From positions 26,345,448 through 26,409,447 of the forward strand of contig NC_088296.1 in NCBI RefSeq assembly GCF_032854445.1: a stretch of 64,000 nt of DNA. Reading direction: 5' to 3'. The notes beneath the pieces are model-generated. The model was not told where the DNA came from. It searched no databases and saw only the letters and a program-made list of their open reading frames with translations. Origin of the DNA: Liolophura sinensis. Its lineage: Eukaryota; Mollusca; Polyplacophora; Chitonida; Chitonidae. Shown in pieces: positions 468-44,631 of the stretch; position 1 is the first letter of the stretch, and every line of letters begins with the position of its first letter. A program made the position numbers and the translations under genes.

Positions 468-833
468 ATGATAGGAGCGTTGCGTAAGGGGAGATATTTT
501 TTAAAATCCGTGGTAGTTTGTTATCAAACATCGCTATCTTTCAGTAGGAACAGTAACGTGCTGCTAAAATTCCAAACATGGAGCAAAATATCTGCCAAAA
601 TTTTGAGTTTAGGTGCCGGATCCGTGATCGTTGCAGGTGTTATTTTAGCACAGGCGGCACGTGACAACTCCCCGCGCGAGGAGGCGGATCTACAGTGTGA
701 CGTAACTGAAAATAACACGCGAGCACGTGGAGGACATAAAGTGAAAGACAAAGGGCAAAATGAAACCAAAGCAGAAAGGAAAAGACTACATGATGCTGTT
801 GTGGAATCCCGCGATCTGATTCAGAGAATAAAG
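468..833 (+). CDS. LACTB: LACTB exon 1 (presequence, membrane segment, linker)
   Basis: Codes residues 1-122. ATG at 468 is preferred over the in-frame GTG at 462, and MIGALRKGRYFLKS has a matrix-presequence character. A hydrophobic stretch at 45-61 is followed by a charged linker, then RDLIQRIK, which aligns with the start of the catalytic domain. The donor AAG|GTACCC leaves phase 0. Confidence 0.93.
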
Positions 834-1343
834 GTACCCAGCCATGCCAATAGACATGATAGAGAGCTTATGCAACAGCTATAGCTTGTATGGGCAGGGC
901 TGATGAAGAAGAACTGCCGATATAGTTTCTTGTGTAAAACATGACAGGCGAGATAGGGCTTACATAAATGAAATCAGTACAAAATTCATTCAAGTCAGGA
1001 AAAATATTTTATTTAGATAACTTTTTATTTATTAATTTATCTGTTTATTATTATTTGTATTATTTACTTATGTATTTATTGGTTTATTATTATTCAAATA
1101 GTTTAATAATTGGGATGACTATTTATGTGTTTTTTTATTCATAATTTCTTTTTTGGGTCTGCCTGCAACCTGTGGATGGTAATGGGTTTCCCTGCCTGGT
1201 TTCCTCCCACCATAATGCTGGCCCCTTGTAAGTGAAATATTCTTGAGCACGGCGTAAAACGCCGATCAAGTAAACAAATAAATATTTTTTTTTGTTTTTC
1301 TTTTATTTTTAACTTATTCAATCTTTAATAGAAAAAAAAACAC

Positions 1344-1389
<46 letters not shown>

Positions 1390-4300
1390 AATGAAAGCAT
1401 AAACAAGAGCATTTTGTATATCTACTTTTGTACATACACTTCCGGTACCAAAACAGGTGTAAAACCTGTACAGTTAATTTAAATTATGTATTATGATTAC
1501 ACTGTAGGATGAAGCAGGGTGTCCTGGTGTTGTTATAGGAGTCAGTGTGGACGGGAAAACTGTGTGGTCTGAAGGTAGGTCACCTTGTTATGCTGTGTCC
1601 AGGAGTCCTGGCCGTAAACTGGTCTGGAGATAGGTCACCTTGTTATGCTGTGTCCAGGAGTCCTGGCCATAAACTGGTCTGAAGATAGGTCACCTTGTTT
1701 TGCTGTATCCAGGAGTCTTGGCCATAAACTGGTCTGAAATAAATCTGCAAATAATTGATTATTTATTTATTTGATTTACTCAATAATATTTCACATATAC
1801 GACAGCAACCAGCATTATGGTGGGAGGAATCCACGCAGAGCCCAAGAGATACCCACAACCATCCGCAGGTTGCTGACAGACCTTCCCACGTATTGCGAAA
1901 GAGGAAGCCAGCAAGAGCTGGAAAATAATCATCTGATTTTTCCTGATTCTGGATAAACAAATAATAACTCTTACCAAATTATTGTAGTTAACACAGGTGT
2001 ACATTGATTCACAACTGGCTTACTAAAGTGAAGCCTACATAAAGCCTTAATTATACATGTGTACATTGATTCACAACTGGCTTATTAATGTGAAGCCTAC
2101 ATAAAGCCTTAAATAGACCCTAATAAAACCCTGCGTGCCTACTGAAAATAGATCCGAACTGAACATATAACTTCACATATTTTTATATGTTATCTTTCTA
2201 GCATTGCGGGGAAAGTGTCTATTTTTATGAATGGGAAATTTTATACGGAGGAAGCTTGATTGCCCTGAAAACAGACATTTTGTTTAGTTTCTCTTCACAC
2301 CCTTTTAATGCAATATTTCATATTCAGTTCATATGTAAGAAAATTGGTGGCTATAGGTTTTCTGCTTTGTGTGTATTTTTTTAAAGAAATTCTCTCTCTT
2401 CTTCCAGGTGTGACAGCTAGGCCAGAAAACACTAAGACTCGCGAGACACCTGCATGTTATACATGTGGCCTGCTTTATGAGTGGCTTTCCTAATGGCTCT
2501 ACATGTGTATTAAACAAACAGAAATTCAAAAACAGACTGTTTATTTTTGTAGCCTTTTATCGTTGCTCCAAGTACATGTTTACTTCTGTCCTCTGATTAT
2601 GTAATGAGTGCCCATTATGAGGACTTTAGGCTGAAGCAAGGTTCAGAATTTCATAGCTGCTGTAACGGGATACATCAGTGGTAGATTAAGCAACCATCAG
2701 TGTCTTATTTCTGATACTGTGGCATTTAACTGAGCTGCCATCAATTTATTCCTCCATCTGTCGTGTGAAGTTAAATATTTTCTGACACGTTATACTCAAG
2801 AAAGGACTTGAGCATTATAAATATGTTTAATGCAGTTGAAGTTGCAAAAGCAGACATTTGAAATTTAAAAAGAACTAAGTTTTAAAGTGTATGCTGTATA
2901 TTCCTACATACATTATGTACTTGTGGTTGAGATGTGAATTAAATGTTGTCAAAGCTATGAACTAGAAATAATTAAAGGTTAAGATTACAAATATTTCTTG
3001 CCAGCCTACATTTACATATCATTTGAAATTTGCTTGTGAATCTGATTTCAGGTGTAGGCTTCTCTGATCTAGAAAATCGTATTGCCATTGGTCCAGAAAA
3101 AGTCTTCCGTATTGCCAGCATCAGCAAGTCTATCACTATGTCCATTGTTGCTAAATTGTGGGAGTCTGGCAAGTTGGATTTAGACGCTCCTGTGCAAAAA
3201 TATGTGCCTGACTTTCCTGAGAAGTCAGTGAATGGGGAAAAGGTATGTGGTACAAATCCTAGTTCTCCTGAGAAAAGGTGAACGAGGGAAAAGGTGTATA
3301 AAAACTGTCCTAATTCTGCTGGGAAAAGATAAATGGAGAAAAGGTGTATGGCAACTGTCCTAATTCTGCTGAGAAAAGGTGAATGATGGAACAGGTGTGT
3401 GATCACTGTCCTCATTCTGCTGAGAAAAGGTGAATGGAGAAAAGGTGTGTGGTAAGTGTCCTAACTTTCCTGAGAAAAGGTGAATGATGGAACAGGTGTG
3501 TGATCACTGTCCTCATTCTGCTGAGAAAAGGTGAATGGAAAAAAGGTGTGTGGTAACTGTCCTTATTCTGAGAAAAGGTGAATGGAGAAAAGGTGTGTGG
3601 TAACTGTCCTAACTTTCCTGAGAAAAGGTGAATGATGGAACAGGTGTGTGATCACTGTCCTCATTCTGCTGAGAAAAGGTGAATGGAAAAAAGGTGTGTG
3701 GTAACTGTCCTTATTCTGAGAAAAGGTGAATGGAGAAAAGGTGTGTGGCAACTGTCCTAACTTTCCTGAGAAAAGGTGAATGATGGAACAGGTGTGTGAT
3801 CACTGTCCTCATTCTGCTGAGAAAAGGTGAATGGAAAAAAGGTGTGTGGTAACTGTCCTTATTCTGAGAAAAGGTGAATGGAGAAAAGGTGTGTGGTAAC
3901 TGTCCTAACTTTCCTGAGAAAAGGTGAATGGAGAAAAGGTGTGTGGTAACTGTCTTAATTCTCCTGAGAAAAGGTGAATGGAGAAAAGGTGTGTGGTAAC
4001 TGTCCTAACTTTCCTGAGAAAAGGTGAATGGGGAAAAGGAGTGAGGTAACTATCCTAACTTTCCTGAGAAAAGGTCAATGGAGAAAAGGTGTGTGGTAAC
4101 TGTCCTAACTTTCTTGAGAAAAGGTGAATGGAGAAAAGGTGTGTGGTAACTGTCCTAACTTTCCTGAGAAAAGGTGAATGGGGAAAAGGAGTGAGGTAAC
4201 TGTCCTAACTTTCCTGAGAAAAGGTCAATGGAGAAAAGGTGTGTGGTAACTGTCCTAACTTTCTTGAGAAAAGGTGAATGGGGAAAAGGAGTGAGGTAAC

Positions 4301-7300
4301 TGTCCTAACTTTCCTGAGAAAAGGTGAATGGAGAAAAGGTGTGTGGTAACTGTCCTAACTTTCCTGAGAAAAGGTGAGTGGGGAAAAGGAGTGAGGTAAC
4401 TGTCCTAACTTTCCTGAGAAAAGGTCAATGGAGAAAAGGTGTGTGGTAACTGTCCTAACTTTCTTGAGAAAAAGTGAATGGAGAAAAGGAGTGTGGTAAC
4501 TGCCCTAATTCTCCTGAGAAAAGATGATTGGAGAAAAGGTGTGTGGTAACTGTCCTTATTCTGAGAAAAGGTCAATGGACAAAAGGTGTGAGTTAACTGT
4601 CCTAACTTTCTTGAGAAAAGATGAATGGAGAAAAGGTGTGTGGTAACTGTCCTAATTTTCCTGAGAAAAGGTGAATGGAGAAAAGGTGTGTGGTAACTGT
4701 CCTTATTCCCCTGAGAAAAGGTGATTGGAGAAAAGGTGTGTGGTAACTGTCCTAACTTTCCTGAGAAAAGGTGATTGGAGAAAAGGTGTGTGGTAACTGT
4801 CCTTATTCTGAGAAAAGGTCAATGGACAAAAGGTGTGAGTTAACTGTCCTAACTTTCTTGAGAAAAGATGAATGGAAAATAGGTGTGTGGTAACTGTCCT
4901 TATTCTGAGAAAAGGTCAATGGACAAAAGGTGTGAGTTAACTGTCCTAACTTTCTTGAGAAAAGATGAATGGAGAAAAGGTGTGTGGTAACTGTCCTAAC
5001 TTTCCTGAGAAAAGATGATTGGAGAAAAGGTGTGTGGTAACTGTCCTTATTCTGAGAAAAGGTCAATGGACAAAAGGTGTGAGTTAACTGTCCTAACTTT
5101 CTTGAGAAAAGATGAATGGAGAAAAGGTGTGTGGTAACTGTCCTAACTTTCCTGAGAAAAGGTGAATGAAGAAAAGGAGTGTGGTAACTGTCCTTATTCC
5201 CCTGAGAAAAGGTGATTGGAGAAAAGGTGTGTGGTAACTGTCCTAACTTTCCTGAGAAATGGAGAAAAGGTGTGTGGCAACTGTCTTAATTCTCCTGAGA
5301 AAAGGTGAATGGAGAAAAGGGGTGTGGTAACTGTCCTAACTTTCCTGAGAAAAGGTCAATGGAGAAAAGGAGTGTGGTAACTGTCCTTATTCTCCTGAGA
5401 AAAGGTCAATGGAGAAAAGGTGTTTGGTAACTGTCCTTATTCTCCTGAGAAAAGGTGAACAGAGAAAAGGTGTGTGGTAACTGCCCTAACTTTCCTGAGA
5501 AAAGGTCAATGGAGAAAAGGTGTGTGGTAACTGTCTTTATTCTCCTGAGAAAAGGTCAATGGAGAAAAGGTGTGTGGTAACTGTCCTTATTCTCCTGAGA
5601 AAAGGTGAATGGAGAAAAGGGGTGTGGTAACTGTCCTAACTTTCCTGAGAAATGGAGAAAAGGTGTGTGGGAACTGTCCTAACTTTCCTGAGAAAAGGTG
5701 AATGGAGAAAAGGAGTGTGGTAACTGTCCTAACTTTCCTGAGAAAAGGTGAATGGAGAAAAGGGGTGTGGTAACTGTCCTTATTCTCCTGAGAAAAGGTC
5801 AATGGACAAAAGGTGTGTGGTAACTGTCCTAACTTTCCTGAGAAAAGGTGAATGGAGAAAAGGTGTGTGGTAACTGTCCTAACTTTCCTGAGAAAAGGTG
5901 AATGGAGAAAAGGTGTGTGGTAACTGTCCTTATTTTCCTGAGAAAGGGTGAATGGAGAAAAAGTGTGGTAACTGTCTTAAATTTCCTGAGAAAAGGTGAA
6001 TGGAGAAAAGGAGTGTGGTAACTGTCCTTATTCTCCTGAGAAAAGGTGAATGGAGAAAAGGTGTGTGGTAACTGTCCTAATTCTCCTGAGAAAAGGTGAA
6101 TGGAGAAAAGGTGTGTGGTAACTGTCCTAACTTTCCTGAGAAAAGGTGAATAGAGAAAATGGGTGTGATAACTGTCCTAACTTTCCTGAGAAAAGGTGAA
6201 TGGAGAAAAGGTGTGTGGTAACTCTCCTTATTCTGAGAAAAGGTGAATGGAGAAAAGGAGTGTGGTAACTGTCCTAACTTCCCTGAGGAAAGGAGTGTGG
6301 TGACTGTCTTAACTTTCCTGAGAAAAGGTGAATGGAGAAAAGGAGTGTGGTAACTGTCCGAACTTTCTGGAGAAAAGGTGAATGGAGAAAAATATGTATG
6401 CTTGTCCAATTGATAATACTACTTGTACCTCCTAATACAAGAGGATAGTTGATTTGTGATTTGTAATGTTTAGAATTTGTGTGATTTTCTAACAGTATAA
6501 AAAAAGTACATTGGAGTAGTTTTCATAAATTACTAGGATTCGCCAATTTCCTGACTTGTTACAGATTTGTCTAATGTCACCATTTATGTCTGATCAAAGC
6601 TTTATCTGATGGATTCTGGTGAGTCAGTATAATTTAGCAGCAACTTAATGTGGACAAATATCATTAATCAATTTCTTTGCATAGTTCTTTGCATGTAAAA
6701 AAGTTGTTTTGCTTCCTTTTTCATGTTTCGTAGTGAAAAACATTCGTTTTAAATTTAGAATACATTTTGTGAATGGATTGTCTGATTTAAAAAGAAATGT
6801 AAAGGCAAACTTACTTTCATAATAACATAGTGAGACATATTGTTCTCACTTTCCAGACATATGGTTGATATCTGTGACTTCAGTCATTTCTAGTTCCAAT
6901 GCATTTCAGGTTACCATAACAACCAGACATCTTGTGTCTCACCTCTCAGGTATTAGGCATTATAAGAAGGAGTCAATGAAAACAGAATCTGAGGAAAAAC
7001 AGGTACGTGTATTTCACAGTGTTAATGTCACAATGTCAGGCTTGTTGATCAGATATCAGATGTTATGAGGTAAAACAGGTAGGCCCCTGCGTGTATTTCA
7101 CAATGTTAATTAGACGTGTCAGGCTTGTTGATCAGATATCAGATGTTATGAGGTAAAACAGGTAGGCCCCTGCGTGTATTTCACAATGTTAAATAGACGT
7201 GTCAGGCTTGTTGATCAGATATCAGATGTTATGAGGTAAAACAGGTAGGCCCCTGAATGTATTTCACAATGTTAATTAGAGGTGTCAGGCTTGTTGATCA

Positions 7301-10300
7301 GATATCAGATGTTATGAGGTAAAACAGGTAGGCCCCTGCGTGTATTTCACAATGTTAATTGAATGTGTCAGGCTTGTTGATCAGATATCAGATGTTATGA
7401 GGTAAAACAGGTAGGCCCCTGCGTGTATTTCACAATGTTAATTAGACGTGTCAGGCTTGTTGATCAGATATCAGATGTTATGAGGTAAAACAGGTAGGCC
7501 CCTGCGTGTATTTCACAATGTTAATTAGACGTGTCAGGCTTGTTGATCAGATATCAGATGTTATGAGGTAAAACAGGTAGGCCCCTGCGTGTATTTCACA
7601 ATGTTAATTAGAGGTGTCAGGCTTGTTGATCAGATATCAGATGTTATGAGGTAAAACAGGTAGGCCCCTGCGTGTATTTCACAATGTTAATTAGACGTGT
7701 CAGGCTTGTTGATCAGATATCAGATGTTATGAGGTAAAACAGGTAGGCCCCTGCGTGTATTTCACAATGTTAATTAAAGGTGTCAGGCTTGTTGATCAGA
7801 TATCAGATGTTATGAGGTAAAACAGGTAGGCCCCTGAATGTATTTCACAATGTTAATTAGACATATCAGGCTGCTTGATCAGATATCAGATGTTATGAGG
7901 TAAAACAGATACATGTGTTTCACAATGTTAATTAGACATGTCAAGACAGTTACGTGTTAGGCTGCTTTATCATATATCAATGTGGTGAGAAGAATGAGTA
8001 AATGTAGCATCATTTTATCTGTTCACCTCAACCCCCCCCCCCCCCCCAACCCCCCCCCCCCCTCACTCAAAACTTCTTTACTTAGATGTACACATATTCT
8101 TGAATGCAGTACATGTGCTAACATTTCTACATCTGAACAGAGCTATTCTTACACTGTGCAGCTGGTTGTCAGAAAGTCAGCACTTTGAGCAGAAGTATGG
8201 ATTGTTTTTGGAAAGAATATTGGTAATACTGGAAATCATGTGATAAAATTTCCACGCATTACTATGACAGTTAGTTGTTACTTTTTTTGTGGGGCCTCCG
8301 TGTTGGTTAGCGTGCTAGCTCAGCGTAATGACCCAGGAGTCTCTCACCCACGCGGTCGCTGTGAGTCCAGGTGCAGCTCATGCTGGCTTCCTCTCCGGCC
8401 GTATGTCGGAAGGTCTGCCATCAACCTGCGGATGGTCGTGAGTTTCCCCCGGGCTCTGCCCGGTATCCTCCCACCATAATGTTGGCCGTCGTGTAAATGA
8501 AAGATTCTTGAGTATGGCTTACAACACCAATCAAATAAACAAATAAATAAATAAATTACTTTTGTTATATTAATACATTGTAAATGAAACATGCTATTTT
8601 TCCCGGCAGGATGTGAAAGACAAAAAATCTAAAGAGAAGAAAAACGACAATGAGAGAAGAAATGTGGAAGGAGATGAAAAATATAAAGAGTTTTATTTGA
8701 AAAAAAAGTTTGCAACAACAAAAGAGGCTTTAGAGCTATTTAAAGACGACCCTCTTCTGCACAAGCCAGGTAAACATATAGGTGGTAGCGACCTACATAT
8801 ACAGGTATCATATTCACCTGTTCTCCAAATCCTTTAACGCTTTTAGGCATTTTTTAAAACTTCTTTGTTGAGGAAGACTCAGTCTAAAATAGGGTAGGTT
8901 AGAAGGAAAGCTGTTCTTTATCAGTCTGGTTAAGTAGAAAAAAAAAACAGACATTTTATAGAAATTTGTAATTGAGACATAAAGACACAAATTATAGATT
9001 CTGTCAATAGCCCAGTAAAATCTTTAGATTAGGTGTCTTATTTGGAGAGTCCGGCATGTTACACCCAACAAACATTTTTAATAGCAGCCTTACGCATTGT
9101 AATGCGTCCTCATCATATGACTGAAAAGTTGTTAAGTGCGACGTTAGACACCAAGCATTAATGCATTCACCGTAATGTGCAGAACAACTAGATTTTATGC
9201 GTGTAAATGAGAAGATCTGTACTGGCTAACATCTGGAGCAACTCCGAAGATACAACTAAGTCATTGAGCAGAATATATACGTGTAGTGTAAAAACGTACA
9301 CAATGGATTTGAGGGTCAGAATGGTATATGTATTTGCTTTAGTATGGGGAAAGGCATGCAGACGTTTTACACCCGCCTGTGTGAAGACACAAAGTAGTCC
9401 AGTTTCATTGGACAGCAACAGTCAGGTGTATGTTACAATATTCTCCAGCAGGTGCCATATTAAGGCTCTGATAATCCAACGGAGTGGGGACAGCGTCTTG
9501 ATCTAACGTTTACAACTCACACAGTCACTACCTGACAGAGGCCTGTTGGTGCACTACTGTTGATAACATTAACCATCCAAAAGCCCCTATATCACTGCTT
9601 CCGAATTTGACGTTCAGTTTCATCGACCTGGCGGGAATTTACAATAGAACCTTTTTTCGCCAGAAACGTGTCTCTTTCTAATTTTGAGGGTTTTCTACCT
9701 CGCCATTATGCACATTTAACTAAAGTATGGCAGGAAAAAAAAAACAATATCTGGATAAACAGATAAGTCATGTGGCATGTCTGCAGGCAGTAAGTTCCTG
9801 TACACGACACACGGTTGGACGCTGGTTAGTGCTGTTCTGGAGGGAGCCTCTGGCCAAACCTTTCCCAAACTGCTGACCAGTCTTTTCAAGGACCTGGGTA
9901 TGTCCAGCACTTACCTGGATGTGAATGAGCCTTTGATTTACCATCGTGGCAGGTGAGTGAGCGTTTGATCTGCCATGATGACAGGTGAGTGAGCCTTTGT
10001 TCTACCGTCGTAACAGTTGAGTGAGCCTTTGTTCTACCGTCGTAACAGGAGAGTGAGGCCTTATTTTACTGTTGTAACAGGTGAGTGAGCCTTTGATCTA
10101 CCGTCGTAACAGGTGAGTGAGCCTTTATTCTACCGTCGTAACAGGTGAGTGAGCCTTTGATCTACCGTCGTAACAGGTGAGTGAGTCTTTGTTCTACCGT
10201 CGTAACAGGTGAATGAGTCTTTGTTCTACCGTCGTAACAGTTGAGTGAGCCTTTGATCTACCGTCGTAACAGGTGAGTGAGCCTTTGTTCTACCGTCGTA

Positions 10301-11903
10301 ACAGGTGAGTGAGTCTTTGTTCTACCGTCGTAACATGTGAGTGAGCCTTTGTTCTACCATCGTAACAGGTGAGTGAGTCTTTAATCTACCATCGTAACAG
10401 GTGAGTTAGTCTTCGATCTACCATCGTGACAGATGGGTGAGTCTTTTTTCTACCATCATGACAGGTGAGCAAGTATGTTCTACCATTGTGACAGTGAGTA
10501 TTGGATCTACCATCGTTGCAGGTAAGTAAGCCTTTGATATACCATCGTGACAGGTGTGTGAGTCTTTGATCTACCGTCTTAACAGATGAGTGGATCTTTG
10601 ATCTACCGTCGTAACAGGTGTGTAAGTCTTACATCTACCATCGTGACAGATGAGTGAGTCTTTGATCTACCATCATGACATATGAGTGTCTTTGATCTAC
10701 CATCGTGACAGATGAGTGAGTGAATTGCTATGAGATCCAGGATCAATCCTGGGTAGAGTCACACCTAAGACTCTAGAAGAGGAAGTTGTAACTTCCTGGC
10801 TTGGCGTTCAGCATAAAGGGGACAGTGCAACGACTGGTTGACCCGTATCAGTATAATGGCTCGGGCGGGGCGGCTTACTTGCCTTTGGTAAGTCGTCTCA
10901 GTGAAGCAGCACTAGATAAACCGTGGACAGCAGTTGGTTAATTTCCCCACTCTTTTGCATTTGGGGGCCACTGGGACAATAAACGGTTTGTGCCCGTTGT
11001 CTAACGTTCGTTATCTTCCTATACCTGTGGGGAATTTTGTAAGTAACATTGGGGTCAGTGTGTTACAACGGACAGTTAAGTTTCCTCCACCTGTAAAACT
11101 TGCCACCTATGTGCAAGTTAAAATTCAGAATCAACTTATCAAAGCGTTAAGCAGCAATCAAATAAATAACTAACTTTACTTTCAGGCATTACGTGAAAAA
11201 CAAGAAGGGCCGAATGATTAATGCTCCTTATGTGGACAACTCATACAAATGGGCTGGTGGTGGATTACTCTCCACAGTCGGGGATCTAATGAAGTTCGGC
11301 AATGTTATGTTGTACAGTTTTCAGCGCGATGATGGCACCAATCAGGTACGAGGAGAACGCAAATCAGAGATGAAATCTAAGTCAAAATTTGAATGTAGAT
11401 CCAAAATGGACGGAATTGGTGGGAATGTAAATCTTCCTGGGTATTTGAAACGCGAGACTGTTCAGAAACTGTGGACAGTGGTGGAGAATGCCTCGCCTGG
11501 CGGGGAAACTTCATGGGGTTATGGTATGGGGTGGAGCGTGATGCCGGAGACGTACAAGTACGGATTCTGTGAACATCAGCGTTACTTCGTCTCCCACTCG
11601 GGCGGTGCCATGGGCGGGAGCAGCATCCTGCTGGTATACCCCAGTGACAAGAACACACAATGTCAAAAACATCGTAGAAATGAATCCCAAGGTCAAGGTC
11701 AAGGTCAGCAGCAAAGCCCAGTAAAGAAGGTTTTGTCTGTAGATAATCAGTCTTCAGGTGACGTTGTTAGCCAGAGTCCTTCAGACGGACAAGACCGGTT
11801 GCCTCAGGGAATTGTTGTTGCCGTCATAGCGAACACCAGTGCTGTGGGACTGAGCAAGACGGCATTCAACATTGCTCAGATATTTGAACAAGTTTATAGA
11901 TAG
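468..11903 (+). CDS. LACTB: LACTB, mitochondrial serine beta-lactamase-like protein (7 exons, 586 aa)
   Basis: Joined exons 468-833, 1508-1574, 3052-3242, 6910-7002, 8610-8769, 9787-9952 and 11186-11903 give 1,761 nt with every junction in phase. LACTB is an active-site serine hydrolase of the penicillin-binding/class C beta-lactamase family; in vertebrates it lies in the mitochondrial intermembrane space, forms filaments and affects lipid metabolism. The N-terminus here is rich in K and R without acidic residues, followed by a hydrophobic run at about residues 45-61, as expected for import. Catalytic motifs are visible: SISK (Ser167, Lys170), a YTT tyrosine motif (Tyr298) and HSGG (about 485-488), the KTG equivalent. 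Stretches such as HLVSHLSGIRHY and PYVDNSYKWAGGG are near-identical to the animal family. Vertebrate LACTB is slightly shorter; the excess lies in the N-terminal region and a Q/S-rich insert near the C-terminus. Four of six introns hold minisatellites seeded at the donor. Confidence 0.97.
1151..1288 (+). repeat. SINE-A, 3' part (LACTB intron 1)
   Basis: Contains CCTCCCACCATAATGCTGG and ATTCTTGAGCACGGCGTAAA followed by an AATAAATA tail, matching the 3' half of the copy at 8,289-8,560. Confidence 0.75.
1346..1386. repeat. (TA)n microsatellite
   Basis: An uninterrupted TA run in LACTB intron 1. Confidence 0.95.
1508..1574 (+). CDS. LACTB: LACTB exon 2 (first strand of the hydrolase fold)
   Basis: The acceptor TGTAG precedes codons reading DEAGCPGVVIGVSVDGK, a classic opening of the beta-lactamase-like fold. 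The donor is GAAG|GTAGGT, phase 1. The donor and about 60 bp of intron are repeated roughly three times just downstream. Confidence 0.95.
1562..1740 (+). repeat. Donor-seeded repeat, about 3 units of 60 bp, LACTB intron 2
   Basis: The exon 2 end GGTCTGAAG followed by GTAGGTCACC recurs twice downstream as GGTCTGGAG and GGTCTGAAG followed by ATAGGTCACC. Later units have changed the donor GT to AT, so they would not splice. Confidence 0.85.
1758..1922 (-). repeat. SINE-A copy, reverse orientation (LACTB intron 2)
   Basis: Starts with TTATTTATTTGATTTACTCA and runs through CCAGCATTATGGTGGGAGG to a region matching the middle of the full copy at 8,289-8,560. The tRNA-like head is missing. Confidence 0.75.
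1992..2112. repeat. Two-copy tandem duplication, about 62 bp
   Basis: GTGTACATTGATTCACAACT starts at 1,997 and again at 2,059; each is followed by a GAAGCCTACATAAAGCC segment. Confidence 0.9.
2113..3051. other. LACTB intron 2, unique part
   Basis: AT-rich intronic DNA between the duplication and exon 3. I see no exon or structured repeat in it. Confidence 0.5.
3052..3242 (+). CDS. LACTB: LACTB exon 3 (carries the catalytic SISK motif)
   Basis: The acceptor is TTTCAG at 3046-3051. The exon encodes the nucleophile motif RIASISKSITM and the conserved VQKYVPDFPEK. The donor is GAAAAG|GTATGTGG, phase 0. Its last 33 bp or so are copied, with changes, in the array that fills the next intron. Confidence 0.97.
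3210..6390 (+). repeat. 50-bp minisatellite seeded at the LACTB exon 3 donor (about 60 units)
   Basis: The modal unit is 50 bp with variants of about 47 bp. Each holds TTTCCTGAGAAAAGGTGAA, then GGAGAAAAGGTGTGTGG. The first part matches the exon 3 coding end TTTCCTGAGAA...GTGAATGG and the second matches the donor GAAAAG|GTATGTGG. The array thus begins inside exon 3 and continues almost to 6,390. Variants such as GGAGTGAGG are clustered, indicating local expansion. Confidence 0.95.
6391..6909. other. LACTB intron 3, unique 3' part
   Basis: AT-rich DNA between the array and exon 4, with a usable pyrimidine tract near the acceptor. No other feature seen. Confidence 0.5.
6910..7002 (+). CDS. LACTB: LACTB exon 4 (HLVSHLSGIRHY block)
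   Basis: Acceptor TTTCAG; 31 codons in phase 0, beginning VTITTRHLVSHLSG and ending SEEKQ. The donor is ACAG|GTACGTGT. The 83-bp array starting here repeats the last bases of the exon. Confidence 0.96.
6991..7945 (+). repeat. 83-bp minisatellite seeded at the LACTB exon 4 donor (about 11 units)
   Basis: Each unit contains GAGGTAAAACAGGTAGG, then GTATTTCACAATGTTAATTA and GTTGATCAGATATCAGATG. The first motif is the exon 4 end GAGGAAAAACAG|GTACG with one inserted or changed base. Units are nearly identical, so the expansion looks recent. Confidence 0.95.
8030..8062. repeat. Poly-C tract
   Basis: Two C runs separated by AA in LACTB intron 4; run length may be unreliable in the assembly. Confidence 0.8.
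8289..8560 (+). repeat. SINE-A, fullest copy, tRNA-like head (LACTB intron 4)
   Basis: The head, about 75 bp, includes TTGGTTAGCGTGCTAGCTCA (A-box-like) and CGCTGTGAGTCC (B-box-like). The body has CTTCCTCTCCGGCCGTATG, GGGCTCTGCCCGG and CACCATAATGTTGGCCG. The copy ends AATCAAATAAACAAATAAAT. This is a typical pol III-transcribed SINE layout and serves here as the reference copy for the family. Confidence 0.8.
8610..8769 (+). CDS. LACTB: LACTB exon 5 (lysine-rich linker plus LFKDDPLLHKPG)
   Basis: The acceptor CCCGGCAG follows SINE-A by about 50 bp. The exon encodes a very charged, K/E-rich linker typical of animal LACTB and the conserved LFKDDPLLHKP. The donor CCAG|GTAAAC leaves phase 1. No array follows this donor. 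Confidence 0.95.
9088..9166 (+). repeat. SINE-B tail fragment (LACTB intron 5)
   Basis: CATCATATGACTGAAAAGTT followed by GACGTTAGACACCAAGCATT matches the tail of SINE-B at 31,205-31,445 and 50,640-51,012. The rest of the element is absent. Confidence 0.7.
9167..9786. other. LACTB intron 5, remainder
   Basis: No repeat or exon recognised up to the exon 6 acceptor. Confidence 0.4.
9787..9952 (+). CDS. LACTB: LACTB exon 6 (carries the YTT motif)
   Basis: Acceptor CTGCAG at 9781-9786; phase 1 in, phase 2 out. It encodes GSKFLYTTHGWTLVSAVLE, whose tyrosine aligns with the second catalytic motif, and ends EPLIYHRGR. The donor GGCAG|GTGAGT is a consensus site and is the seed of the 32-bp array that follows. 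Reading through it meets TGA at once. Confidence 0.94.
9940..10735 (+). repeat. 32-bp minisatellite of consensus splice donors, LACTB intron 6 (about 24 units)
   Basis: Most units read GTAACAG|GTGAGTGAG, then CCTTTGATCTACC. The exon 6 end and donor supply the same string: CCTTTGATTTACCATCG, then GGCAG|GTGAGTGAG. The array therefore consists of copies of a strong 5' splice site, and many units keep CAG|GTGAGT intact. Confidence 0.95.
10725..10930 (+). repeat. SINE-B copy (LACTB intron 6)
   Basis: Shares GAGGAAGTTGTAACTTCCT, GACAGTGCAACGACTGGTTG and CGTATCAGTATAATGGCTCG with the copies at 31,205 and 60,168. The canonical tail is not recognisable. Confidence 0.75.
11186..11903 (+). CDS. LACTB: LACTB exon 7 (C-terminal half, HSGG motif, stop TAG)
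   Basis: The acceptor TTTCAG at 11180-11185 joins in phase 2 to give RHYVKNKKGRM. The exon holds PYVDNSYKWAGGG, the LPGYLK block, HSGG at about residues 485-488, a low-complexity insert with QGQGQGQQQ, and a C-terminal strand beginning PQGIVVAVIAN. The stop is TAG at 11901-11903. Confidence 0.97.
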
Positions 11904-31639: not shown

Positions 31640-34560
31640 GCTGGAGCCCGGGTCAATAGTTTGTTTGTTTCTTTTGTTAACTGTTTAACGTCACTGTCAG
31701 CCTTAATTGCTGGCATATCAGGGTGGTTTTTGACCCCGAGGCGAGGCCTCTGCACAATTATACCAGTAACTATTAATTACAACAATATGTATAGGACTAA
31801 CGCTGGGAATAGTGGTGCATGTTCCCAGGGCGAGTCAAGGGCACTAAGACCCATTTCCATCCAAAGATCGGATATATTTGAGAAAATTAAACATGATATT
31901 TCCACCAAATCGTGTTCTATCCAACGGAACGATTGTTTAACACTGAATTTCCAAAGCAAACATTTAACTATTTCCAGATGTGGACATACCAATTGTCTTA
32001 CATGTCCATCATTTGATACATGAACGGGCACCGTAACTCCGTGCGCAAGAAACAATTGCTAATAGGCAAACATTTCTCTGCCTCCGATCATGACTGGGAC
32101 CATTTCCGCATTCAAATAATAGAATCAGTTTATCCATCAGAAATGAGACAGGTGTCGAATTTGAACGTAAAATCCATGACCGTCAGCTTTTCTGGATGCT
32201 AGAGATTGGTTCAGTCTTCCCATATGGGTTGAATGATAACGTTATGGGAATCGGCAATGTAACATCTAGCCAACCATATGACTCCATCATAACAAATTTA
32301 TTCAAATACCATAAACGTAGGCCTCGCAGTCATGGTAGTAGGAAGTTCAACAGAAACATGATTCACCAACACGTTACAGTTAGCTATTTAGTAGGATTGT
32401 CGTATGGCACCAATAGCATGCATGCTCTACACACAGTATTATATGCGCTGCCATTGAACTTGCTAAAACAGGTCGTTCAAGACATATCCAATAACATACA
32501 CAATTTTAATGTTCCACCTCAACGTGTACGTCTGTGTCAAGACATATCGTATTTTCGATTGTATCGCCCTGTTACTACAATTGAAACTCAACACGATCGA
32601 CTCTTTCTGAAGATAAAGTATTTAGACAGAGGCCTTGATTTAATTAACCTATCACGCATCTTTAATGAACCTGATGTTCGTAGTGCTGTGCCTAATTAAT
32701 TTAATATCCAAGAGCCAACTTGCATATACTATGAGTATACGAAGCGTATCGCTTACGAAATTTTCAATTATTCCCAGGCCATCAAGGAGTTCGATTTGGC
32801 GACGTATACTTCTGGCGGCTATAACTGTGATTGTGAATCCTCAGTTTTAACCTACGACAAATGTAAACATGTCTTGACTGGTGACCTTAATATTATTAAG
32901 AATCATGATCTAATGAATCTCTTTGTGAGGGGTCCTAAGTATAGAGAAAAGTCAAATGTCAACATGTGATCAAAAATAATAAATATCATCTCGGCACTTG
33001 AGGAATATGTTAAAAATGGTCAAAACGGGAGAAAGTGGATTCTTCTGTACTTAACGATTGGCTTTAATTTGTCCAACAGAAAGTTAACTTAGCTATACAC
33101 ATTGATGCTCTACCTAAAGTTAAACAGGTTCTGAAGGATCCCACTGTGCAAGAAACCCTCGCTGACCTTCATAGTAAATTTGTCATCACTGTAGCAGACA
33201 AGGCACCTAATAAAGCCATCTTTTTTTTGCAAGGATCATTATTACCAAATTCTTGTTCAAGAGCTGTATACATCTACAACAACATCTATGTATTCTGCTA
33301 CTACATGTACTCTGGAGGAACTATTTAATAAACACAAAACCTTTCTTAAAGAAAGATGCATATATATACCTATCCATCATACAGAAATACCACAATTTTA
33401 CTGGATTCCTAAAATGCATAAATCCCATACAAGGCTCGATTTATTACGGATTCAAGAAGTTGTACCAACCAACTCTTGTCAGCCCTTCTTACGAGAGCGT
33501 TACAAGAAGTAAAGTCATTTTGGAATAAGTATTGTTGTGCCATAACAAAAAATTCAGGTGTCAACTGCATGTGAATTCTTAACAACTCCAAACGTCTTAC
33601 AGAAGAACTCGATGCTCATATGCATATACCGTACAAAGACGTATCCACATGGGATTTCTCTACTCTCTATACTACAATTCCTCACAAAGATTTTATTGAA
33701 AAATATCGTCGTTAACTGTCTCGGTATTTACTAAAACAGGCCACCGTTACATTAACGTCAGAAGCAATAAGGCTTTCTTTAGTTCTACTATTTATAAAGA
33801 ATTACTTGAATTTCTCATTAATAATATCTATGTGAAATTCGGAGATACCATTTACCAACAGTGCATAGGTATCCCAATGGGTACGAGTTGAGCGCCTCTT
33901 TTGGCAGACCTATACCTGTTTTCATATAAATACGACTATATGCAGAAATTACTGAAAAGTGATATATTTAAAGCTCGATCCTTTTCATTTACCAAGCGGT
34001 ATATTGATGATCTACTGGGGTTAAATAACCCCCAAATTGCTGACGCGGTGAAGGAAATCTATCCGCCTTCATTGGATTTAAAGGAGACAATAGATAGTCC
34101 TGATGCATCTTATTTCGATCTAAATTTGTTCAAAGACGAACAAGGTCTCCTTTCACGCCGCCTCTACCACAAAAGGGATAATTTCAATTTTGATACTGTA
34201 AATTATCCTTATTTAGATGGCAATATACCAAAGGGCCATGCATATGGCGTATACATATCTCGCCTTGTAGCATTTGTCAGATCTTGCGTTAATTGTGATG
34301 ATTTTAATCTGTGTCACAAGTTGTTATTTCAAAAACTAGTTTGTCAAGGATACTCCATCAAACGCCTTCATTCTAAGTTTCTCAAATTTTACAATGAGTG
34401 TAACGCTCATTGGCAGGCATGGACAGAGCGTTCAGAATCTCTGGTGATCTGCATTGTGATCAACCACATAGGCGGCGCTGTTATCCTTATGTACATATCT
34501 ATAGCGTACATGGTATTTAACAACACAGATGGTGCTGGTTGTCGAGTGTAACCGTCTATC
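31640..34560 (+). mobile_element. Decayed Penelope-like retroelement, N-terminal GIY-YIG type
   Basis: Conceptual fragments in order: a Cys-containing N-terminal region (GHTNCLTCPSFD, about 32,000), the C-terminal part of a GIY-YIG-like nuclease (RNSVRKKQLLIGKHFSASDH; then FPYGLNDNV), a basic segment, the pre-RT linker (VLTGDLNIIKNHDL), RT fingers/palm with STWDFSTLYTTIPH and GIPMGTS[TGA]APLLADL, the catalytic box RYIDDLL, and a thumb-like region to about 34,550. Nuclease sequence ahead of RT is the permuted order described for the Naiad clade. Frameshifts, a TAA near 32,697 and loss of the nuclease start make it a dead copy. Confidence 0.8.
33901..34551 (+). pseudogene. Reverse transcriptase palm/thumb, longest intact frame of the element
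   Basis: A 216-codon open stretch from the LADLYLFSYKYDYM block through the RYIDD catalytic box (YIDD at about 34,000-34,011), FDLNLFKDEQG, KRDNFNFDTVNYPYL and AYGVYISRLVAFVRSC. These follow the order of the Penelope-like RT palm and thumb. The frame continues upstream through the TGA at 33,889-33,891. Confidence 0.85.
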
Positions 34561-44059: not shown

Positions 44060-44400
44060 CGTAAAGTCTACGGGATTGGACACCGGTTTGGTCTTTGAAC
44101 AGTTAAAGATCCAGTTAAGATGTACTCTCTGGAGAGTCTGTGGTCAGCTTTTGAAATCCATCGAAGTTGGATATATATCTTTCACTGCCTTTACAGCCTA
44201 TATATCGTTTAAAGCTAGCAGATCATCAGTATACCGTGTACTGATTGAGAAAGATCGGGCCCGGAGAGGATTATTCTGTAAGAGGTTTTGCATATAGTCG
44301 AATTCATCCAAGGAAAAGTATAGGTCAGCCAAACATGGGCACAATTCGTACACATCAGAATACCTACTCACTGATGACATACTGATTTCCCAGAATTTCA
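44060..44400 (-). mobile_element. Second Penelope-like RT fragment, reverse strand
   Basis: On the minus strand, in more than one frame: ILMCTNCAH (equivalent of the GTNCAP box), LADLYFSLDEFDYMQNLLQN, RARSFSISTRYTDDLLALND and AVKDIYPTSMDF. These align with the element at 33.8-34.1 kb. The catalytic box reads YTDD rather than YIDD. Frameshifted and truncated. Confidence 0.75.
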
Positions 44401-44631
44401 AATACTGTATATGTTATCAATGAGAAATATAAGGAAATGGATACATCATGATGCATTTCATGATTGGAGCCTGTGCGACAACGTAAGCTTGTTTAGACTC
44501 ATCACTGGTGTCCTCGCGAAGAACTATTTAATCACCATTCGTCTACAAAAATGGTTCAGGTTTTGGTTAGAATCACCTTGTGAACACTTGAGATGAAGGG
44601 ATGCGTGTGTATATTGTGTTATTATAACCAA

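Follow-up and report, generated by a model that had tools for sequence, protein, structure and literature searches.

Four of the six introns of LACTB in the chiton Liolophura sinensis carry minisatellites that span the exon-intron junction at the 5' splice site, structures of the kind described as mirages in amphioxus and as exon stuttering in chicken. The coding exon and the first (5'-most) donor are intact in LACTB. The original prediction had seen in these arrays repeated seeding at donors, by a shared process there or under selection that tolerates repeats, and as a whole it is partly supported. On balance the likeliest cause is that this genome is prone to minisatellites and tolerates those duplications that cross a donor, a reading that explains most of what was observed with no need for a special process at donors.

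The window, that is, the whole stretch of 64,000 nucleotides that was analysed (NC_088296.1, positions 26,345,448 to 26,409,447), belongs to an assembly of 632 contigs and 609.46 Mb that was first published under the name Liolophura japonica (PMC11068029), later corrected to L. sinensis (PMC12441733). A seven-exon reading at 468-11903 is LACTB: human LACTB structures matched it (7ulw, E 1.3e-114), as did the Pfam family Beta-lactamase (5.2e-52). All exons lie on the + strand. Exon 1 (468-833) was read from its frame, with a provisional start codon, and ends at the donor AAAG/GTACCC; exon 5 (8610-8769), likewise from the frame, ends at CAG/GTAAAC; exon 4 (6910-7002) and the last exon (11186-11903) follow from the frame and the human match. 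Exons 2 (1508-1574), 3 (3052-3242) and 6 (9787-9952) have VSVDGK.VWSEG, FPEK..GEK and NEP.IY.R, respectively, in common with human LACTB. The six introns occupy 834-1507, 1575-3051, 3243-6909, 7003-8609, 8770-9786 and 9953-11185. The first and the fourth also contain, at 1150-1290 and 8290-8550, what we take to be SINE-like elements with ATAAATAAATA tails.

The arrays, all on the + strand, were delimited with TRF. The intron 2 array (1565-1738; 3.2 copies of a 55-nt unit) spans the donor at 1574/1575, its first part being the last 10 nt of exon 2, and the intron 3 array (3207-6391; 64.7 copies of a 50-nt unit) spans the donor at 3242/3243 and encloses the last ~36 nt of exon 3. At intron 6 (9921-10720; 25.3 copies of a 32-nt unit) the last 32 nt of the exon make up one complete unit of the array and continue to code for VNEPLIYHRG. 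For intron 4, where an 83-nt unit is repeated 10.9 times, the TRF range (7006-7908) has its left edge 3 bases inside the intron, and the junction likeness extends ~12 nt into the exon, giving an array at 6991-7908.

A 35-nt junction query was then compared with the same intron, taking the best of 300 shuffles as the threshold. Junction copies exceeded the shuffle maximum in introns 2 (score 23, maximum 14), 3 (21, 17), 4 (20, 14) and 6 (25, 15), so that the prediction of four arrays that start at the donor with a unit copying the border withstands alignment statistics as well as TRF. Introns 1 and 5, which had been said to lack such arrays, yielded no junction copy above 300 shuffles with the same 35-nt query (8 against 13 and 10 against 13). 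The 20-nt heads of the next exons scored 7-8 in each of the six introns, a value at chance when judged by the shuffled tails. With the 20-nt exon tail alone, introns 3 (15 against 13) and 6 (16 against 12) passed, and introns 2 (10 against 12) and 4 (11 against 13) stayed below the shuffle maximum because the exon share of their units is short, at ~10 and ~12 nt. Read directly, the short share of intron 2, TGGTCTGAAG, is back in register at +55, +110 and +165 with 9/10, 10/10 and 9/10 matches, and in intron 4 GAGGAAAAACAG and GAGGTAAAACAG agree at 11/12 positions.

The exon share is large in introns 3 and 6. The first intronic copy of intron 6 is identical to the 32-nt exon tail at 25/32 positions, and since the unit wholly matches that tail, the donor GTGAGTGAG resembles a copy of the exonic GTGAATGAG. 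Counting the true donor in each case, GT is kept in 38/52 aligned copies in intron 3 and 16/22 in intron 6, and CAGGTA in 11/11 in intron 4; in intron 2, GT is lost in both intronic copies (GATAGGT). In most intron 3 copies GTGTGT stands in place of the GTATGT of the true donor, with AAGGTGTGT in 34/52. The intact decoy donors of introns 3, 4 and 6 count neither for harmlessness nor for harm. Since the exon tails at introns 2, 3 and 6 are conserved coding sequence in common with human LACTB, the exon part predates the array; at these three introns the array was copied from the exon, and copying ran from exon to intron.

As the original prediction had stated, the sequences differ between introns: the four LACTB units, compared among themselves, are unrelated, and each copies its own exon border. 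This speaks against multiple insertions of a dispersed repeat or transposon family containing a donor-like word, as does the finding that units differ among the arrays of the word CAGGTGAGT discussed below, among the matches listed. Although SINEs and other dispersed repeats occur in the genome, with a published repeat content of 27.89% (PMC11068029), we consider such a family very improbable.

The same structure was found in other genes. Our sample comprised 132 exons chosen by family searches with repeats disregarded: 67 exons from beta-lactamase (7), myosin (30) and kinesin (30) loci, taken with 1.5-kb flanks and excluding LACTB's own locus (L004), and 65 dynein exons from 12 clusters. They are HMM hits with predicted borders, some perhaps without introns on both sides, and some loci are parts of one gene. 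For each exon, the 50 nt around its end were compared with the downstream flank, and those around its start with the upstream flank. Above the null threshold were 5/109 tails and 2/109 heads (1/109 and 0/109 in the wrong-side controls), and 23 additional dynein exons contributed one more tail (L087 exon 2) and zero heads. After the cases had been read, donor-spanning arrays stood at six of the 132 exons (L027, L035, L040, L058, L082 exon 3 and L087 exon 2), of which L040 and L082 exon 3 were detected by TRF and not by the null threshold. With the relic of a donor-spanning array at L082 exon 2, the donor total is 7/132 (~5%); an acceptor-spanning array occurs at L045 alone (1/132). On its own this 7:1 split is not significant (two-sided p 0.07), and leaving out the relic gives 6:1 with p 0.125.

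Among the donor cases, L040 has a 125-nt unit downstream of a kinesin exon that includes 46 nt of the exon tail; two of its copies read CAGGGAATG in place of the true donor CAGGTAACG, so those decoys are dead. Two cases are weaker: at L035 the TRF edge lies 59 nt past the donor, the unit agreeing with the donor region at 23/25 nt, of which 8 nt are exon, and at L082 exon 3 the TRF range includes 6 nt of exon. The acceptor case, L045, is the rarer mirror image: a 64-nt unit with the intron end and the head of a kinesin exon is repeated ~12 times about the exon start (position 1500).

Three further candidates were set aside. L069 was dropped as a donor array, its true donor being CAAG/GTAAGT and its array beginning tens of bases deeper in the intron; L050 was not counted, the hit having arisen in the wrong-side control; and L033 was dropped as an acceptor case, having a single upstream copy only. 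That copy, a near-identical exon head ~650 nt upstream of a myosin exon, is perhaps a mutually exclusive alternative exon. Eight molluscan haemocyanin units also stand in a row in this genome (L070-L077); these loci lie outside the array counts.

At the sampled rate of 7/132, four or more arrays in six LACTB introns would have a probability of 1e-4, a value uncorrected for the fact that LACTB was picked by the reader from a larger reading. That choice, together with a HiFi coverage of 14x (PMC11068029), is what speaks for an assembly artefact or a chance pick. The copies, however, are imperfect with distinct variants, they exceed the shuffles, and the structure recurs in other genes, and we find this explanation hardly credible.

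In the 67 exons, LACTB again excluded, 10 left array edges fell within -60 to +120 nt of a donor (12.1 kb) compared with 25 in the 92.5 kb beyond (p 0.005), a density of 0.83 versus 0.27 per kb, or 3.1 times; this bin was chosen after a first look at the data. Right edges at acceptors showed no excess in the same exons (4 versus 28, p 0.78). An absence of edge excess at donors, which the prediction had named as counting against it, was therefore not what this small sample gave: donor edges were denser, and acceptor edges were not. Array coverage rose from 2% at 0-30 nt before acceptors to 6.5% at 120-250 nt, and from 5% to 15% after donors, and the lower coverage before acceptors fits acceptor-side sequence being more constrained. 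The 53 dynein introns (median 360 nt) held four arrays, two spanning donors and none an acceptor; on their own they gave no significant edge excess, with 3/4 arrays near donors where 1.7 were expected (p 0.16), or 4/7 at a lower TRF threshold (p 0.25).

These observations are most readily accommodated by tolerance. The chiton genome would often make short tandem duplications, and selection would remove most of those that touch an exon. A duplication that runs from an exon tail across the donor would leave the exon and the first donor unchanged and act as neutral intron growth; it may be tolerated because the exon stays intact as long as the first donor does its work. The array could then expand by unequal exchange, gene conversion or slippage, the exon serving as a wall and so holding the left edge at the donor, and the extra intronic donors would be putative decoys that splicing must ignore. 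A duplication across an acceptor would also copy the branch point, the pyrimidine tract and the AG, and arrays there would be rarer because junk would be added wherever the first AG was used. Tandem repeats (period of at least 10) account for 44% of the window and for 43% of the 10 kb that precede it, compared with a mean of 14% (median 2%) at the 67 exon loci elsewhere, which places LACTB in an array-rich stretch. Some results weigh against pure tolerance: it predicts no preference for a donor word, yet one such word, described next, is in 24-fold excess against 1.7- and 1.9-fold for two others; and by itself it would not raise edge density near donors, unless the exon is a stopping wall.

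Donor words were counted genome-wide, regardless of their position relative to exons, as three copies with gaps of 15-45 nt on both strands, with the same word read backwards as control. CAGGTGAGT was found in tandem 673 times against 28 backwards (24-fold), compared with 264 against 158 for CAGGTAAGT (1.7-fold) and 127 against 68 for AAGGTAAGT (1.9-fold). Changing one base of CAGGTGAGT at the invariant T gives CAGGAGAGT, which had no excess (37 against 49), so the invariant T matters for CAGGTGAGT, yet not all good donor words are favoured. Single copies of CAGGTGAGT numbered 10,097 against 2,731 backwards. The rate of tandem copies per occurrence, computed for CAGGTGAGT and its backwards control, was 6.7% against 1.0% (Fisher p 7e-41, a value that is too small because matches within one array are not independent).

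Since one long array yields many matches, places matter more than match counts. Among 100 single CAGGTGAGT matches listed, 10 of 59 places were multi-copy within 500 nt, where chance would give ~0.4%. Among the matches listed, whose reach may differ between the two strands, we counted at least 14 array places for CAGGTGAGT in the first 50 Mb of C1, at least 14 for AAGGTAAGT up to the start of C10, at least about 15 for CAGGTAAGT (by hand) over C1, C2 and C3 to 23.3 Mb, and at least 16 for the threefold-degenerate acceptor word TTTTHCAGG from C1 to C3 and into the start of C4; for CAGGAGAGT the complete list has 9 places genome-wide.

The CAGGTGAGT counts, the multi-copy places and the edge enrichment at donors but not at acceptors are what one would expect if donors were hot seeds for tandem duplication, through co-transcriptional nicks or R-loops, a stalled polymerase, or CAGGTGAGT acting as a recombination or repair motif. 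We hold this explanation only tentatively. The excess of CAGGTAAGT and AAGGTAAGT is smaller than that of TTTTHCAGG in tandem (317 against 109), even though among predicted donors (n=123) GTAAGT outnumbers GTGAGT twofold (16 versus 8). A tandem excess is therefore not shared by donors at large. In 57 genic arrays donor words were not clearly above their backwards controls (CAGGTGAGT 0/0, AGGTRAG 1/1, AGGTRNG 6/6 and CAGGTR 10/6, word/backwards); the corresponding counts in 33 intergenic arrays were 0/0, 0/0, 1/1 and 5/1. The post hoc choice of the edge bin and the disregard of exons in the CAGGTGAGT counts further weaken the case. R-loops, one of the processes originally proposed, found no backing in GC skew, which was 0.027 in array bases against 0.059 in the other flank sequence; the skew of the array bases was positive at 17 of the 28 loci with over 100 array bases. 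The broader proposal of a shared process at donors is supported insofar as some other genes have such arrays and edges are denser near donors, and falters on the two of three strong donor words that show little tandem excess.

Biased conversion would account for the preference in another way: arrays would begin at many donors, GC-biased conversion would change GTAAGT to GTGAGT and, at -3, A to C, and CAGGTGAGT would be the end state of long arrays. Places per Mb among the matches listed, at a rough 0.28, 0.10 and 0.03 for CAGGTGAGT, CAGGTAAGT and AAGGTAAGT, track G+C; array bases have 43.8% G+C against 37.5% outside; and the predominance of GTGTGT over the true GTATGT in LACTB intron 3 goes in the same direction. 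On the other hand, CAGGAGAGT shows no excess with a G+C equal to that of CAGGTGAGT, and the copies in LACTB intron 4 keep GTA, and we think this explanation rather unlikely. The word counts would fit a donor effect favouring GTGAGT, a property of the word or biased conversion in arrays.

Tolerance at donors, our preferred reading, concerns structures already described elsewhere. In amphioxus such arrays, called mirages, occur in Adh3 and the globins at both boundaries (PMC3087553, citing Canestro et al. 2002), and are reported there as not disturbing regular splicing (PMC3087553). In the portion of that account available to us, the minisatellite unit spans the exon-intron boundary and the exon is intact, as in LACTB introns 2, 3, 4 and 6 (with a short exon share in 2 and 4), and many copies have AG/GT, as in introns 3, 4 and 6 but not in intron 2. 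Amphioxus mirages sit at 5' and 3' boundaries, whereas donors prevail in our sample from a different phylum, and the chiton arrays are known from the sequence of one haploid assembly, in contrast to the regular splicing and length instability reported for mirages. Chicken exon stuttering affects 236 introns in 115 genes, often several per gene, with >90% of source copies within 1 base of the exon border and 190/236 introns on dot chromosomes (PMC12954441, 2026); the length of such introns differs among individual chickens. According to the available text, it resembles LACTB in that the exon edge and splice site are copied many times into the adjacent intron, the coding exon stays intact and several introns per gene are affected. 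The chicken bias towards small GC-rich chromosomes was not seen among our few examples, which lie on C2, C6, C9, C11 and C12 (C6 being 82.5 Mb), with the array G+C given above. The LACTB arrays thus have the testable structural features of mirages and exon stuttering, and the phenomenon itself is not new.

Exon stuttering is called unreported in other vertebrates except gerbils, for which data are not shown in the available text of that paper (PMC12954441). Among the papers listed by our literature searches there was no mollusc case of a junction-spanning array, and none is reported in the accessible parts of PMC3087553 and PMC12954441. Intronic minisatellites are known from an abalone gene (PMC6905558) and an earthworm gene (PMC12783039), and in what is available of these papers they are not described as junction-spanning. 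Intron gain by tandem duplication of AGGT has also been discussed (PMC3087553; see also PMC4974935). As far as the available text goes, LACTB intron 6 resembles it, with duplication of a 32-nt exon tail that starts with GTGA and ends in CAG, but need not be a new intron.

Tandem repeats are abundant beyond LACTB, making up ~44% of positions 12000-64000 of the window and of L009. In the published table (PMC11068029), as far as available to us, simple repeats, microsatellites and RNA come to 0.08%, and 14% is unclassified; the terms tandem repeat, minisatellite, satellite and simple repeat are absent from a paper on chiton genomes (PMC12005716). Minisatellites look under-annotated in this genome, and part of them may fall within the unclassified 14%. 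A Pfam scan of three ORFs resembling reverse transcriptase in the window found no family. The open frames at 33068-34548 (+) and 44201-44413 (-), with IPMGTSCAPLLADLYL and RYIDDLL, are presumably Penelope-like reverse transcriptase.

These results extend an odd structure, known from a lancelet and from the dot chromosomes of chicken, to ordinary genes and to a third phylum, where its rate at sampled donors (7/132, ~5%) and a possible donor bias can be measured. They make it testable whether splice sites start minisatellites, with a bearing on intron growth. It may be, though we put this forward tentatively, that CAGGTGAGT is a birthplace of minisatellites across the genome, with tandem duplications started there by a process linked either to 5' splice sites or to the word; if so, growth of introns would proceed from the 5' end, with decoy donors filling them. 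Such introns supply natural pre-mRNAs in which dozens of nearly identical donors follow one another, useful for asking how the first donor is chosen.
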